Shown here: piece after piece, positions 4,526 through 15,974 of the stretch
Layout: the number at the start of each line of letters is the position of its first letter
How positions within the stretch are numbered: position 1 is the stretch's first letter
Origin: Margaritispora aquatica
Taxonomy: Eukaryota; Ascomycota; Leotiomycetes; Helotiales; Discinellaceae
Direction of reading: 5' to 3'
Length of the DNA: 64,000 bases
Assembly: GCA_007644065.1 (NCBI GenBank)
Contig: VJWN01000024.1
Location: 137,902 to 201,901 of the forward strand
Notes under the pieces: model-generated
Seen by the model: the letters and a program-made list of their open reading frames with translations, nothing else
Told to the model about the DNA's origin: nothing
Database searches by the model: none
Position numbers and translations under genes: made by a program

Positions 4526-7500
4526 TTAGAGCAAGACAAGATCTAACCCCTGTCTAGCATCAACTAGCAGCTTGACTATAGCTTTATGCCCTCCTTGACT
4601 AGCGTACCACAGCGGCGTCCTACTAGCCCAACCCTTACTATTAATATCGAACTTGTCAGTAGCGAGAATTAGCTTGACTATAGCTTCATGCCCTCTCTCT
4701 GCAGCACGCAATAGCGACAACGAAATATCCACATCGACCTTGCCAGTATCAAGGAATAGTTTGAATATAGCCTCGTGTCCGCCCGCCGCAGCCAGCAAAA
4801 GCGGCGTGTGACCTGACCCAGCCTTTGTATCGACACGGACCTTGCCAGTAGCAAGGAGTAGTTTGACTATAGCCTCGTGTCCGTGAAACCCAGCCCGCAT
4901 CAGCGGCGTCCAATCCATATCATCCTTTATATCGACATCGACCTTGCTAGTAGCAAGAAGTAGCTTGACTGTAGCCTTATACCCTCCCTCCGCAGCGCGC
5001 GACAGCGGGGTCTTACCAACCTCACCCTTTATATTTATGTCGACCTTGCCAGTAGCGAGGTGTAACTTAACTATAGCCTCGTATCCCCCCGCTGCAGCGC
5101 TCAACAACGACTCTCCATTGACATCGACCTTGCCAGTAGCGAGGAGTAGTTTGAATATAGCCTCGTGCCCTCCCGCCGCAGCGCGCGACAACGACTCTCC
5201 ATTGACATCGACCTTGCCAGTAGCGAGGAATAGCCTAACCACGCCCTCGTAGCCTCTTTCTGCAGCCCATACGAGCAGACTTCCATAATTTTGAGAAAAC
5301 TTTTGAGAAATAAGTTCATCTCTCATTTTAAGAATGAATTTAATGGACTCTTGGTACTCCGTAGTTAGAGAGACAGAGTGGTTAAGGGGCAGCTTCTCAG
5401 CTGGCCAGGTAGTGGTATCCGGTAGCAAAAGTGCTCTTACAGCTGCTTCGTTTCTATAAAACAGGGCCGCATTCAGAGGAGAGCCGTGCCGCCCTCCTTT
5501 TATTTCCAATTGCTGCACCTGATTAAGTTCAATCCGGATAAGGTTCGGTAAGGATTTTTCTGAAAGGATATATAGCTGGCTGCAATCAGGTTTGTGCCGT
5601 CGTACTTGATACTTTTCGAAGATGTTGTCTAAATTAAACCAATCGCCGAGAGGGAAATTCTCCAAGAAATGAGTTTGCGAGATCCCGTACCCACTTGCGG
5701 TATCGGCATGATGAAACACGTTATGTACTGCATATTCCAAGAAAGGGAAATTTTTGGACATTGATTCGCGCAGCTTACGACCCTCCTCAGAATTTGCAGC
5801 TGGCAGCGGCGTGTTAGATGGTAAATATTCCGAGGTGTCAATCTTTGCATAAGTTTGACAGCACTCCTTTAGTCGCTCATGACTAGATCCCGGAAAGTTA
5901 TTTTCAAGGTGAGATTGAAGACTGTTCAGTCCATTTCCTTTCAGGAGAAAGTCCCGAACGGATTCGTGAATGAACTGAACCGTTGGATGCTTGGATTTGG
6001 TCATTTCTGCGAGTCCCTTGGACGAATCGAGTATATATCTTCCCATGTCCTGCTCGGTAACTTCTTCACGTCTCCATGCAGCCAATGCAAAAGGTGCAAC
6101 TCCAGCTAAGATAGCAAAGTATAGTTCCTCAGACTTCATAGGCCTTTTAGCGTACAGTATCCACTGTAGACACAGAACAAGGGCATCGATGTTCTTGTTG
6201 TTTCTGGTCAAAATGTCTCGGAACAGGGCATCCAAATCGCTCGGGATGTCCTTAAGCCGCCTTTGAAGCATATGGATGCGGCCACCATCAAACTCTTCAT
6301 TCAGCATTGGAACAACGAGTACAACCCATAGAAATACCCCAGAGGCTCTCTCAATCATTTCGTCCCGGATTTTCTCCATTTTCTTGCTACCTCCATCCTT
6401 CAGTTTGGCACGCAGATACTTAACAATATCCTGTGAATGGCCATCTTGGTCTTCTAGGATAAGGTAGACACCTTTTTCGATCGTGATGTGCGGGTAGTGG
6501 CGACTTGAGAAGCAGATATGTAGTTGGATTTTGGATGAAACAGCACTTTGGCCAAGACTTTCGAAGAAAGCCACCATATCTCTTGTTTGATCCTCCTGGC
6601 ATTCATCCAAAGCGTCAACAAAGCAGGTTAAGTGGCGCTGTCCGAGGCGCTCCACTGCACGGCTGAAAAGATTCTTGATGGTCTCGATATCGCTATCAAA
6701 GGTCATGGACATCCTCGCCCCAAGTAATTCGAACGGGTCTTGAATATCCGGAAGCCGTTCTAGTAATTGAAACAATAAGGATCGGTACATCCCTAAGACG
6801 GACTTCTCCAGCTCTTCACCTCTTGCGTTAAAGAAGAAGGAGATAACGATAGTATCTGCCATGGCCTTCTTAGCAGTTTCAAATGCAAACTTCATCAACG
6901 TTGACTTTCCAGTCCCGGGTTTTCCCTTTACCCATAAAAAGCCATTATGGTCGGATATCTTGGTGTCGTCGAGCCAATCTTTGTACTCGGATTTGCTAAG
7001 CAGCCATTGGCATGTTTTTGCGTGTGCGGTCTTGATTGTCGCATGTCGAGCATCGATTTGATCAAACTTCAAGCGATCCATAAATTCCTGTCTTGGATTT
7101 ACGTCGCTGGTTGCAATTTTTCCGGAGTGGGCTGATTCTGTAGTACCATTTGCCCTCTGATTAATAGACACGATAACTTTGATAACTTTCTTGTACTCGT
7201 CATCGTCATGTCCACGAAATCGACACATTTCCATGTGGTTGCTAGCACTTTGTTGAACACACTCAATTATTGGATCATTCAAACGAGAAGCAGTATCTTC
7301 GACGCCCTAGATGAATTAGAATCTTATACAGGAATGTATTTGAATCACTTACCATTTGACCACGAAGGGCCATGTCGTCGTATTGTGGCTGAAAGGAATA
7401 TATAGGCCATCGCTTATGACGAGCGATTGGGCGAACCATCTCATCCCATGTCTTGAGCTGTTCTGCATAGAGTAAGAAACTATTAATAATCTGATCATTG

Positions 7501-8919
7501 ACCCTGAAATTCTCAACTCCGGTACTCTTCTCGATAGCATCCCGAACCAATTCTCTGAGATTTGGACCACTATGCGGGGTTCCAAAGAAAAGTATGCCAG
7601 AAGTACTACCGTAGATGCTATTAAGATGATGCTGGTATGTTTTACAGGAGCTGGATCTTCGAAGCATCTCCATTATAACGACTCCTCCAAGGCCATGGGC
7701 AACAAGCAGTAATGGCCTTGACGACTGGAAACGTCGGACTGATTCCAACTTGAGAAGGAAATCCCATGCGATGTCCTGGGTTGCGCTCTTCTCGATGCCA
7801 TCACTACTACAATTATCCGAACTTGTGTCGTATCCATACGTGAGGATACGTGCATTTGGGACAGCGGTTGGAACAAGATCTCGCGGCCAAAAAATGGATT
7901 TATGGTCTCCATTTCGTCTTTCATGGGGCGTGGCGGATGGGAAAAGCTTCCGTCTTTTGGAACTACGCTCATCCTCAGTATCGTTATGATCATTTTGTTT
8001 ACGACCAACTTCTTGTTGTTCCCAACTCCATGTATACTCGGGATGACCAGTGAAACCATGAACAAACACAATACTGCCTGGGATTAGTAACTTTTCAAAT
8101 GTAAGAGATTATAAGTGAGACTTACTCGAGAGATGGTGATTCCGGATCAATAAGCAAGGAAAGGCCGGTCTTACAAGGCGTCGATGTTTGTCGTAACGAC
8201 TCGGGTTTTAATTTTCTATCAATCTCACGATAGAGACGACTCATTGCACTATCTCCGCCCTCGCCATAGTTAGCCACTAATTTGACACCAAAAATGCCGA
8301 GAAGACAATATGCCGCGTCTTCTTTGCGTTTGGTTTTCCGGCATTCCGTCCATGATAACCGCTCCTCAACGGTAAAGCACGACAGAGGGCTCCCCTCAAG
8401 TGCTTGAATGGCAATTCCCGTTGCCCTGTGAATCTGATCCTTCAGGAATTTCTTATCACCAAGTAGGTGGCCATCTTTGGAGAAGAACTCGACCGATGCT
8501 GGAGCAATAAGTTCTTGAAGTGTCCAACCCCGAGTAAACCATTTGCTATTCAGAAATGCTGCAAAGTCGTCACACGTTAAAACGTCAGGGAGGTACACGT
8601 AGCACTTTGTTGCTCGACAGTACCAGTCAAACATGGAGGTGATGGCCTCGTTGAGCTCAGCACTATTCGACTTATCGATACAACAAGTATCCACCCAAAA
8701 GTACTGGAGGTCATCGCTGGCAATTTGGTTTCCGCAAAACTTGATCTTGTTGTAGCCGGCCTTGTGCTTTCCAGTACCCTCTATTATGTCTTTGAAGGAT
8801 ACCTCGTCGCTATCAGCTCCCCAAGTATGCGAAAGGATAGCATATGGAGGAATATTATCATCATCATACTTGTCGGTCAGACTGAATTCACCACCGTTTT
8901 TTCGCTGCAAGAGACGCAT
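4526..8919 (-). CDS. HET / alpha-beta hydrolase / NACHT / ankyrin-repeat NLR-type receptor
   Basis: A 1431-aa STAND/NLR protein, probably of the fungal heterokaryon-incompatibility and cell-death repertoire. Exons are 8126-8919, 7353-8073 and 4526-7306. Both introns have GTAAGT donors, and all joins keep frame (LD|IVFVHG, GQM|GVED). The first ATG (8919) gives MRLLQ, the classic HET-protein start; upstream in-frame sequence has only a TTG. The HET domain has YAILSHTWG at 26-34, WVDTCCIDKS at 75-84 and RGWTLQELIAP at 130-140. The SesB-like hydrolase (about 266-500) has FVHGFTGH and FFGTPHSG, but its nucleophile elbow reads AHGLGG, Gly at 392 where Ser is expected. The NACHT domain has Walker A GKPGTGKST at 633-641 and Walker B FVDALDE at 734-740. 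The C terminus is about eight near-identical ankyrin units. The P-loop is intact. Ligand and partner are unknown. Confidence 0.92.
4570..5290 (-). repeat. Homogenised ankyrin-repeat array within the NLR gene
   Basis: About eight units carry the core HEAIVKLLLATGKVDVN. Four or so are full length (about 34 aa, with KG..G.TPL). Three are shortened to 28-29 aa and lack the KGxxGxTP hairpin segment. Neighbouring short units at about 5090-5250 are nearly identical at DNA level, which points to recent unit duplication or gene conversion. Confidence 0.85.
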
Positions 8920-9829: not shown

Positions 9830-11776
9830 CTAGATAGTAATCTCAGCTGGCACCTCAATGCTCAGAATATCCACTCCCCCATCCAACTCGCTCTTGCTAG
9901 GCATCTTTCCCCTCCGCATCAATTCTGACGCCTGAACCATGACTGGATCGACGCCCATTGTGCCTACCGCAACGACAGTCTCGCCCTTGCAGTAATACGC
10001 CACAAACTTCGCCTCGCCAGGGGTGTGGTTCTTCAAGACCAACTCATCCCATCCATTCGGTGTGTTACCACAGTAGCGGAGTTGAGAGCCTAGTGCAGAC
10101 CAGAAGATAGGAATGAATGCTTTGGGAGCAGCGGAGGGATCGATGATGTTGGCTGCGACCGCACGACCAGCGTTTTGAGCGACGTTCCAGTGCTCAATGC
10201 GGGTGGGTGAGCCGTTGCCACCAGGTCCGTGGTAAGGATAAGTTGCTATATCACCGATAGCAAAGACGTCTTTCATGCCTGAAACGGCAAAGTGTTCGTT
10301 TGTGGAGAGGGAGCCATCCTTTTCGAGGCTAATGGCAGAGTTGTCTTTGAGGAAAGCTGTTGCTGGCCCGACTCCTGTTCCGAGGATAACAACTAGAAGG
10401 TTTTAGTAAAGATACCTTGAGAGAGGGATTGAGGTCTTACGATCTGCAGGAAGAACGGTTCCATCCTTCAAAGCGATACCACCAACCTTGGACGAGTCTG
10501 AGTCGGATGGAACGGCTTTCTCGACACCAGCTCCCATGTAAAATTTGACACCATTTTTCTCCAAAGCGGTTTGGAAGATTTTGCCAACTTCTTCACCCAT
10601 AACACGTTCCACTGTTTGGAGTCAGTACTGGTCATGGATATCACACGAAGTACTCACAAGGTGCCTTCTCCATTCCAACGACAGTAACATCATTACCCTT
10701 GGCAACTGCATTGGCCACTTCCATGCCAATGAACGAGCTACCAATAATGACAATCTTCTTGTTCTTGTCTCCAATGGCGTCATTAATCGCCTTGACATGA
10801 GGGATGTTGCGAAGGAGGAAAATATTGCTAAGTTCCTTGAATCCTGGCAAAGGCAAAGATTTTGGATTTCCACCTGTGGCCAGCACAAGCTTCGTGTATG
10901 GATATGACTTTCCGGCTTTCGTCGAAACCTTCTTGGCTTCGAAATCAACACCAGTTACCTCATCCTCGACGAAATCAACTGAACCTGACTTAAACCAAGC
11001 ATCATCTCGCAGAGCAATCTTGGACTGATCAGCAATCAATGCCTTTGACAACTTCGTTCGATCGATTGGTGTGTATCCCTCATTGCCAATCATAGTAACC
11101 GATCCCTTGAATCCGTTTTCGCGGAGAGCTTCCACTGTACCAAGAGCACCACTACCCCCTCCAACTACGACGACCTTCTCAGACGAGTTGGCAGATCCAG
11201 AGATTGTAACGTTTGGCTTCCTCCTGCTGCTCTTGATGGCGGCTTGTTCTCCAGTCACGAAGACCGAGCCATCCTTTTCGGAAAGTTCGAAGGAGGGGAG
11301 GGCATCGATAGCGGGGGCATTTTCGATATCACCGTTTGTGGCCTTGAAGCAAGCACCGTGCCATGGGCAAGTGATTCTGCCATCTGCTGAGGATTAGATA
11401 TATAGTACATGATGTTGAATATAAATTTCTCACCTCCAGTCAAAACTCCCTTGATCATTGGAGCTCCATAATGCGTGCACTTTGATCCAATAGCACTGAC
11501 TTTCCCACCCACGTTGCAAAGCAGCACCTTTCCACCTTCGATGCCCTCAACTTCAACCTCCTTCTTCTCGCCGGGCTTTAGATCGAGGCTGGTGATGCCC
11601 TTGAGCTTGTATTCCTGAGCCATAGTTGGTGATGTCGTTGAGAAAGCTCTCTGTACTACTTGGTAGCGGGGTATGTGGGCAGGAGTAAATCTTGGTGTGG
11701 CTTGACGAATCGTCTGTCGAAGTCCTTTATGTAGAAAGAAGCGTGGGGAGAGCATAAAATAATTGGTACTGTACAT
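9830..11776 (-). CDS. Rieske-domain AIF-like FAD/NAD(P)H oxidoreductase, mitochondrial
   Basis: A 600-aa flavoprotein of the AIFM3-like type: N-terminal Rieske [2Fe-2S] domain plus a pyridine nucleotide-disulphide oxidoreductase domain. Exons are 11434-11776, 10658-11383, 10441-10611 and 9830-10392, all joined in frame. The presequence is basic and hydroxylated, with FFLHKGLRQTIRQ and RAFSTTSPT before MAQEYK at residue 52, as expected for mitochondrial import. Rieske ligands are Cys100/His102 (CTHYGAP) and Cys120/His123 (CPWHGACF). The FAD site is VVVVGGGSGALG, the NAD site KIVIIGSSFIGME, and the second FAD motif DVFAIGDIATYP. The start could be the ATG at 11776 or the next at 11755 (MLSPRF); both keep the presequence. 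Members of the family are linked to redox metabolism and sometimes cell death. The reaction here is unproven. Confidence 0.93.
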
Positions 11777-12613
11777 GAAAGAGGGGGAGGGGAGGTGGGA
11801 GGAGGATGGGTAGGGACGGAGAGACGATGACAAACGAGGGGCAGAGTCAATATGTAGCAGTGGCCTAATGTGGTATATTCTACGTTTTAGATGGGCACAT
11901 GAAGTCGTCACTGATTGATAGACTGAAGTGATTAAAAGTGGACTTGGTATTGGAGTATTGATGGTGGACTGACTTTGGTGGGGTAATTGGCAATGTATAC
12001 AAGTTGATTTGCTGAATGTTGCTGCAACTGTCCTTGTTGCTGGCAAGGATTCTCGGTTCGGGCTTCGAAAGAACGCAAGATGACATTCCAGCCGGCGAGG
12101 ATAGGATGACGTCTGGATCTGGATCTGGATCTCGAAGCTTGAGCTCGGACTCTCGGTACTGTGAGCGAGCTAATATCGATTAGGATTTTCAAAGCTAAGC
12201 CTATTTAGATTCATCAACTCTTGAGAGCTCTCTTCGGTCTACTGTATTTTCCTTGGACATATTGATAAGAGGCGTCTCCGCCTTTTTATTTTGTTCAAGT
12301 GCTTTCCTTATTTTAGGAAATGATGGTTGTAAAACACTACTATATCGCTAAAGCTAATACTGAGGTGACTTATTAGGAAAATGAATCTATTGTATCAACT
12401 CAACTAAGACACATATCTACTTATTCAGGCAGGTGGTTATTCTCAAATAACATCCAAAAGACTTTCCAAGTTCATTTATTCATTCTTGAAAGTCCACCCA
12501 TCCACCACTCGACACAATGATACTTTTCGGTTATTCATGGTATTCATATACTTACCCATGAGACCCATGAACATCCAATCAGAACCTCCCAGTTCCGACC
12601 GGTCAACCGACAA
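11777..12613. other. Intergenic region between AIF-like gene and tRNA-Ile
   Basis: About 0.84 kb. In-frame extension of the AIF-like frame to about 12046 has no ATG and reads as 5' leader. A GGATCT triplication (ctggatctggatctggatct) lies near 12112-12132. Nothing else was recognised. Confidence 0.6.
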
Positions 12614-13495: not shown

Positions 13496-15974
13496 TCACT
13501 CGCCCAACACCTCCCTCAACGCATCGTGATCCACCATCCCAGGTACAACCTTGACCTGAAATGGCACTTTCTCAACTTTCTTCGCGAACCCTGGAACAGG
13601 GCCCTTTTGATTAATCCCCGGTGGTCTCCCCATAAACGCTCTCAAGGGATCCACAGTCGCAACCGGTGTACTAACCGCTCTACTCTGCTTCGCCATTACT
13701 GTGGTTGAAGGAGCCAACATACCAACCAGGAGCGGCGACACGGATACAGCTGAAGATGTTTTGGCAGAACTGCTGGCCCAACGTCCGAATACCCATCCCA
13801 TGCCACTAGAAGTAGAGCGAACGCCTTCCGTGGAGTTCGAGCCAGATGAAGAAACGGAGCGTGTATCACTACTATCTTTCGAACTACGCATGGCAGAGCG
13901 TAAATAAGAGGAACTGTCTTTACTATATCGCGAGAGTTCGGGGCGAGCGGTAATGGCCGAGGCACCGGTAATTGTTTCCATGGAGACGTAGCTTGATGCT
14001 GTACCGAGTCTTGATCGAGGTCGGAAAAGCGGATTTCCACCTGCCATAGTAATCTGTGCAGGTCTCGATTTGAGAGTGTGTATATCAAGACCGCTAATGG
14101 ATAGGATAGACTCGTGGGAAGTAGAATGTCGAAGGGTACGTTGGAATGAGGGACTCCACTCTTCATTTACAGAATCCTGAAATACGCTTGAACTAGTAGG
14201 AGCTTCGTCTACCGAAGGTGGGCTTTGTGTTTGCTGCAAATCTGGCAATTCTTCCACATCGTCATCCTCCTCTTCATGAATCACATGTGGTTGAAAACTC
14301 ATTGCAGTTGCAAAGCTCCGTGTAGAAACTTCGGACATTCGTTTTCTGTGATGGTACGGCGTAAATTGTGGTGAAACAGGGTCCACACTCGAGGTTGGAG
14401 AAGTAGGGCGGGACGAGTCCATATCGAAGCCTCTGTCGAACAAAGCACTGTGTCTGTAAACCGAGTTGGGCGAACTTGGTACTGAAGATGGTGCGAAGTC
14501 CGACAACTGTCCTGACTGCATAGACCATCGGTTATGGCTTGGTGTTATTGGAGAAGGCACTGAAGTTTGTGACAAGATTGCATTGGCCGACTCCTGACTC
14601 CGCAGTGTAGATGGCGATTGTAATTTCCTAGGAGGAGTAAAAATTGCAGCATTAAGCGAAACCCTCTTCTTCTTGGGTCGTCGAATGTCTTCCTTCTTTG
14701 GGCCATGGTAGTGGTGATGGATGTGCAATTCTTGGGATATAACGTGTGGTTCGGTGACTTGCTTGGGTGCCATTTCCGCTCTGAGTGTCGACTGGCCATC
14801 TCCATAATGATGGGCTATAGGCTGGTGCATTAATAGTTGCTCTCTGAGCAACTGAACCTCGTCATTAGAGTTCATTAGCAATTCTCTCAGTTCCACGATC
14901 CCTAGTTGCAAATTGGCATTATCGTGTAAAATATCCTTGACAAAATGAGAAACGACATGGCTTTTGCCGTTTCCTGTAGTTATTGCTGCTCCTCTCGATC
15001 GTCCAGCACTTTCATCAAGTTCCTTTTCCACAGCTCGTTGTCTCTCCATCCGTTCAACGACCTCTACATGACGCTCCCTCTCTTCCCTTGTTTCTCGCTC
15101 GATTCTTTCCAGCTGGTCATTAACATCCATTAGTTTTCGCTCGGCTATCCTCCATCTCTGAATCGAACATCGTTCCTCCTCCTGGCAAGTCGTCAATGTT
15201 CTCTGCAGCAGCTCCTGCTCCTGTTCTATAGCAGCCAACTGAGCCTCCAAGTCGTGTGTTCTTAGTGCCAAAGTCTCCAGTCTCCGTATCTCCTGCCGTG
15301 TACTCTGAAGTGTAGCTTCCAATGATTTGATATGCAGGTCTGACTCTGACAAGGTCCCATTCAACCCCTCCAACTCATCCAACAACCCTCGGTTTTCCCT
15401 GATTGTCTCCGCATTCTGATCCTCCAGGTTCCTCTTCTCAAACTCCAGTTGCTCGATCTTAGCACTCAATTCCAATCGATCCCGCTCGGCATCATGCATA
15501 TACTGTTCGTGCCGGATGAGGAGCGCCTGCAACGCAAAGGTTAGTGATTTACTCATATCTTCTGCCACTTAAGATCAATGTGTCGCTGTGAAAACTCTAC
15601 AGTCTTCTTCGAGCGAAAATAAAAACAGTAACCTAGACCAACGAGCGGGAGGGACAAGGAATGCATACTTGACCTAACTGAGCAGCAGTCCGCACTTCCT
15701 TTTCCAAATCGTCGAGCGCCACACAGTTGTGTTTAAGATATGCGCAATCTTGGCGGCCACAACAACAGCTTAGATTTGGAGTCGTCGAGCAACACGCTGG
15801 AATGCGGCCTATCAGGACCTCGAGATCGTCTTTTGGTGACACATCTGTCTCTATCTCTGCCTCGAAGTCGTTTTGTAGTGGTACACCCGTCTCCATCTCC
15901 ACCTCTACCTCCAACTCTGCCATTGTCACCGCCGCTGCCGCCGCCTGTCCATCTGTCCTTCCCAGCTCCTCCAT
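13496..15974 (-). CDS. Fungal coiled-coil protein with cysteine-rich N terminus
   Basis: A 778-aa protein with two exons, 15669-15974 and 13496-15526. The intron has a GTATGC donor, a CACTAAC branch site and a TTGCAG acceptor. The join AAQLGQ|ALLIRHEQY makes a smooth helix, so an in-frame ATG inside the intron (15568) is not the true start. Residues 61-84 hold seven cysteines (CC, CCC, then C and C around CCCGRQDCAYL). Residues about 103-335 form a long coiled coil, ending in VSHFVKDILHDNANLQ, a segment I would expect to be conserved. HIHHHYH lies near 370 and a basic PKKKR, possibly nuclear-targeting, near 388. The rest is Ser/Pro-rich and probably disordered, ending in VDHDALREVLGE. I recognise the general type from ascomycete genomes but not a named function; scaffold or cytoskeletal roles are guesses. 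Confidence 0.85.

Follow-up and report, generated by a model that had tools for sequence, protein, structure and literature searches.

The window, a 64,000-nucleotide stretch of contig VJWN01000024.1 from the helotialean fungus Margaritispora aquatica, carries an NLR-like receptor gene on its minus strand from position 8919 to position 4526. Three segments of the minus-strand reading frames (8919-8126, 8073-7353 and 7306-4526) join to 4296 nt and encode 1431 amino acids with a single terminal stop. The modules of the predicted protein follow each other in the order HET, SesB-like alpha/beta hydrolase, NACHT-type switch, and ankyrin repeats, and the features of the gene are as follows.

8126..8919, minus strand: exon 1, with the start methionine (MRLL), the HET domain (residues 1 to ~244) and a linker
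8074..8125, minus strand: intron 1, 52 nt, GTAAGT...TTACTAATCCCAGGCAG
7353..8073, minus strand: exon 2, the bulk of the SesB-like alpha/beta hydrolase domain
7692..7694, minus strand: Gly392 (codon GGC) at the position of the nucleophile-elbow serine, AHGLGG where relatives mostly have AHSLGG or VHSLGG
7386..7388, minus strand: Pro494 (codon CCA) in place of the predicted catalytic acid, which ends the predicted beta-7 strand in relatives
7307..7352, minus strand: intron 2, 46 nt, GTAAGT...TTCTAATTCATCTAG
4526..7306, minus strand: exon 3, the end of the hydrolase, the NACHT-type switch, a middle part, the ankyrin repeats and the stop
7235..7237, minus strand: His529 (codon CAC), the predicted catalytic histidine, retained
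6500..7015, minus strand: NTP-binding core of the NACHT-type switch (NPHP3_N match, residues 603-774); the Walker A motif lies at residue 633, the Walker B motif at 731
4526..5286, minus strand: ankyrin repeat region, whose DNA is repeated in tandem with units of 84 nt (5040-5286) and 102 nt (4725-5086)

Both introns have a GTAAGT donor, an AG acceptor, and a CTAAT stretch ahead of the acceptor, and retention of intron 1 leads to a translation stop after residue 265. The exon and intron coordinates given in the preliminary description of this DNA fit the re-joined reading frame. Its central claim, that two in-frame introns unite four modules in one 1431-residue product, was confirmed by the splicing and by the domain search of the predicted protein that it had suggested, which found the modules in the same order. 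An effector, a NACHT switch, and C-terminal repeats are thus present in a single protein, the layout of fungal NLR or STAND receptors.

The HET domain matches Pfam HET (PF06985) over residues 26-110 with 47.2 bits against a gathering cut-off of 22.5, a match that covers only profile positions 1-86 of 146. The HET motif and core residues are conserved, the protein belongs to PF06985, and the AlphaFold2 model of the exon 1 HET domain has a mean pLDDT of 89.5. Overexpressed HET domains have been reported to be sufficient for cell death (PMC12881547), and enzymatic activity has yet to be established for the domain (PMC12881547, PMC10197012). The 42.4-Mb host genome has a large HET repertoire, with 151 exon-level matches reported, and 13 of the 22 matches in a search of the genome for the window-type HET, the window's own included, were at E 6.2e-35 or better. 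The Walker A (GKPGTGKS) and Walker B (LTCFVDALDE) motifs of the switch are both intact, as first described. The ankyrin DNA repeat units of 84 nt (28 amino acids, shorter than the canonical 33-residue ankyrin repeat) and 102 nt (34 amino acids), with matches of 73-86%, may reflect repeat exchange by analogy with the repeat domains of other fungal NLRs.

Directly upstream of the receptor, positions 9830-12169 of the minus strand contain open frames that by eye resemble Rieske/AIF-type oxidoreductases. Farther upstream, a 690-residue open frame (13496-15568, minus strand) has 120 listed relatives, 118 of them without a Pfam label; among the matches listed, the best named one is from Oculimacula yallundae (Helotiales, Leotiomycetes; 66% identity), and metagenome proteins reach 73%.

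Relatives of the receptor were drawn from two protein searches (the best 120 of 4089 and the best 120 of 2737 matches), giving 225 distinct proteins, among which 192 have a HET domain, 35 have the hydrolase, and two have both. One of the two is P0001 from Lophium mytilinum (BU16DRAFT_51347, 1295 amino acids), with HET at residues 1-244 and the hydrolase at 260-560. The other is P0010, a 1900-residue protein from the sordariomycete Paramyrothecium foliicola with a doubtful gene model, in which an MFS transporter stands in front, the HET domain is shortened, and the start of the hydrolase is missing. No second HET-hydrolase pair was seen in the 42.4-Mb genome of M. aquatica. The survey of HET-hydrolase-NACHT proteins proposed at the outset therefore returns a rare architecture.

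The accompanying statement that fungal NLRs usually carry one effector agrees with printed schemes, in which the architectures are tripartite and repeated N-terminal effector swaps are inferred (Dyrka 2014, PMC4986451), but it does not extend to all known cases, since double-domain N-termini, among them C2-Goodbye in Agaricomycetes, are described in a 2022 study (PMC9815663) and HET-HeLo pairs occur in P0135 and P0194. A figure legend in a 2025 paper (PMC12258605) also names a "mixed" category of NLRs that have several canonical domains, with N-terminal placement unspecified there. In P0135 and P0194, both metagenome proteins, HET is again foremost, followed by HeLo, NACHT, and ankyrin repeats; at least two HET domains stand in tandem in P0002 and P0121. 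No description of HET-SesB stacking was found in the searched portions of the literature on fungal NLRs. HET-SesB is a real and rare architecture, and double-domain fungal NLRs as such are already in print.

In a tree of the hydrolase and NACHT regions (36 rows), the window protein and P0001 are sisters (98/93). Next to them stand P0003 and P0005, both unfused and both from Helotiales; support for the group of four is 100/98, and P0010 lies elsewhere. A single clade of the three fused proteins was rejected (p-AU 0.004) on a NACHT tree of 64 rows, a quick tree that sampled 30 HET proteins. As judged from these alignments, the chassis of the window protein belongs to the SesB-NACHT-ANK lineage. 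Because P0010 lies elsewhere and one clade of three is rejected, SesB-NACHT-ANK receptors probably acquired HET on two or more occasions; one early gain followed by repeated loss is possible. The end branches of the window protein (0.60) and P0001 (0.53) are long, and their pairing may be due partly to long-branch attraction; L. mytilinum belongs to another fungal class, the Dothideomycetes. A gain of HET ahead of an older chassis appears to fit better than a gain of the hydrolase inside a HET receptor.

Along the strands of alpha/beta hydrolases, the catalytic residues occur in the order nucleophile, acid, and histidine. A structure model of the relative P0020, which stands in for the window hydrolase, places Ser154, Glu256, and His291 at or just past predicted strands 148-153, 250-256, and 282-287, although the model is middling (mean pLDDT 75.6, with 193-226 and 258-271 below 50). 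From the strand order, Glu256 is taken to be the acid and His291 the catalytic histidine, and the three residues match positions 392, 494, and 529 of the window protein. Of 34 relatives, 33 have the nucleophile serine and P0010 has asparagine instead; all 34 aligned relatives have glutamate where the window has Pro494, and all 34, like the window protein, have histidine at position 529. Two of the three predicted catalytic residues are consequently lost in the window hydrolase, and only His529 is left.

The domain has the fold of the SesB-like family and homology to it, and it lacks the Ser-acid-His triad; by sequence it is to be regarded as a descendant of that family for which enzymatic membership does not hold. 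With the nucleophile and the predicted acid gone, it is most likely no working serine hydrolase. Gly392 and Pro494 were read from one assembly, in which a base-calling error is possible at one of the two sites and unlikely at both. The label of a hydrolase domain must not stand for activity. Among the relatives, P0001 keeps all three residues, and the unfused P0065 keeps AHSLGG in a predicted protein from which SFQE and MCRF, the segments with the acid and the histidine, are missing.

Constraint on the two regions was compared in 34 proteins (31 unfused and three fused) with a score, devised after the substitutions had been seen, that counts broken columns among those at least 95% invariant in unfused proteins; P0017 and P0065 were excluded from this comparison by length rules. 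Broken hydrolase columns number 15 of 75 in P0010, 17 of 87 in the window protein, 11 of 93 in P0070, 10 of 87 in P0001, 7 of 92 in P0013, and at most 5 of 92 in the others. In NACHT, the first four of these break 4 of 105, 3 of 105, 5 of 108, and 3 of 105, respectively. For hydrolase minus NACHT, the fused proteins rank first to third of 34, as extreme as one of 5984 possible triples, and for the hydrolase alone they rank first, second, and fourth (2 of 5984), in counts that ignore relatedness and concern three fused proteins, two of them sisters, from apparently two fusions. For NACHT alone they rank 10, 12, and 13, and the mean identity difference runs from -8.3 to -14.2 in fused proteins and from -1.5 to +10.3 in the 31 unfused ones. 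The loss of constraint is confined to the hydrolase, and NACHT is broken at a normal rate. Damage also occurs without HET, in the unfused P0070 and P0013, and the complete triad of P0001 means that HET fusion alone does not imply a dead hydrolase.

These observations are best explained, with fair assurance, by fusion of a HET domain to the N-terminus of a pre-existing SesB-NACHT-ankyrin receptor, where it would have taken over the output while the hydrolase decayed into a spacer or scaffold, or a relic; damage in the unfused P0065 lowers confidence in this reading somewhat. In such a receptor the ankyrin repeats would sense a ligand, the NACHT-type switch would exchange nucleotide as in its family and the proteins would assemble, and the HET domains thereby crowded together, which are regarded as relatives of TIR, would trigger cell death. 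The hydrolase would tie HET to the switch or be in the course of being lost.

The closest competitor, an unlikely one, is that the hydrolase would be kept for binding as a non-catalytic bait or ligand-binding module, either an integrated decoy or a lipid sensor. Such a role is consistent with the 70 of 87 near-invariant columns that are kept, a frame open over ~300 amino acids, and the retained His529, but the pattern is compatible with simple decay too, and the ankyrin repeats already provide a sensor. Less probable still is the dual-output receptor envisaged in the preliminary description, with HET and hydrolase both active effectors under one switch. The two domains do lie in one spliced reading frame, and P0001 retains Ser, Glu, and His, but the loss of constraint in the hydrolase and not in NACHT, together with the replacement of the nucleophile serine by glycine and of the conserved glutamate by proline, makes it unlikely that cell death is coupled to hydrolase activity in this protein.

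It is very improbable that two genes in head-to-tail order, one encoding HET and the other SesB-NACHT-ANK, were merged only by the gene model. HET genes are plentiful in the host genome, as the 151 reported matches indicate, and Met226 could in principle serve as a start, but residues 226 to 320 contain no further methionine, and the hydrolase match in unfused relatives starts at residue 4-23 (the unfused P0007 has an additional partial match at 110). The existence of P0001, a single protein collinear with the window protein (689 of 1275 aligned residues identical), argues for one gene; a linker conserved in both proteins spans splice junction 1, and the good splice signals likewise bear out the one-gene model first proposed. 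Ongoing decay of the whole receptor as a pseudogene, suggested by the state of the hydrolase, is hardly credible given a 1431-residue open frame, only 3 of 105 near-invariant NACHT columns broken, and an intact HET core.

Under the favored reading of HET takeover, the gene is notable above all because its inner effector appears to be decaying. We know of no answer to how an effector swap avoids a non-functional step, and a receptor with a new and a decaying old effector would be an obvious form for the intermediate to take. It is conceivable, though on balance doubtful, that HET-first stacking is such an intermediate in fungal NLRs, in which a new upstream domain takes over and the old one, released from constraint, becomes a pseudo-enzyme scaffold or bait and is then lost, with P0001 (complete, eroding), P0010 (Ser to Asn), and the window protein (dead) as stages. 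The question can be tested through stacked and unstacked relatives.

Among known systems, HET-E and the HNWD proteins of Podospora (HET-NACHT-WD40; PMC4986451, PMC12881547) share a HET domain ahead of a NACHT-type switch and repeats. The window protein differs in its ~300-residue hydrolase between HET and NACHT and in having ankyrin instead of WD40 repeats, and in the 36-row tree its hydrolase and NACHT regions fall within the SesB lineage. The SesB-like-NACHT-ankyrin proteins P0003 (Hyaloscypha finlandica) and P0005 (Cudoniella acicularis) are collinear with the window protein across hydrolase, NACHT, and ankyrin repeats, with identities of 53.5% and 55.4% in the hydrolase and 68.5% and 67.2% in NACHT, respectively, but they have no HET domain and keep Ser, Glu, and His. 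C2-Goodbye proteins of Agaricomycetes (PMC9815663) and the HET-HeLo-NACHT-ANK proteins P0135 and P0194 also place two effector-type domains before one switch, but the domain pairs are different. The nearest counterpart is P0001 of L. mytilinum, which has the same four-part architecture and is the sister of the window protein in the tree, but retains the hydrolase Ser, Glu, and His and by eye has fewer ankyrin repeats.
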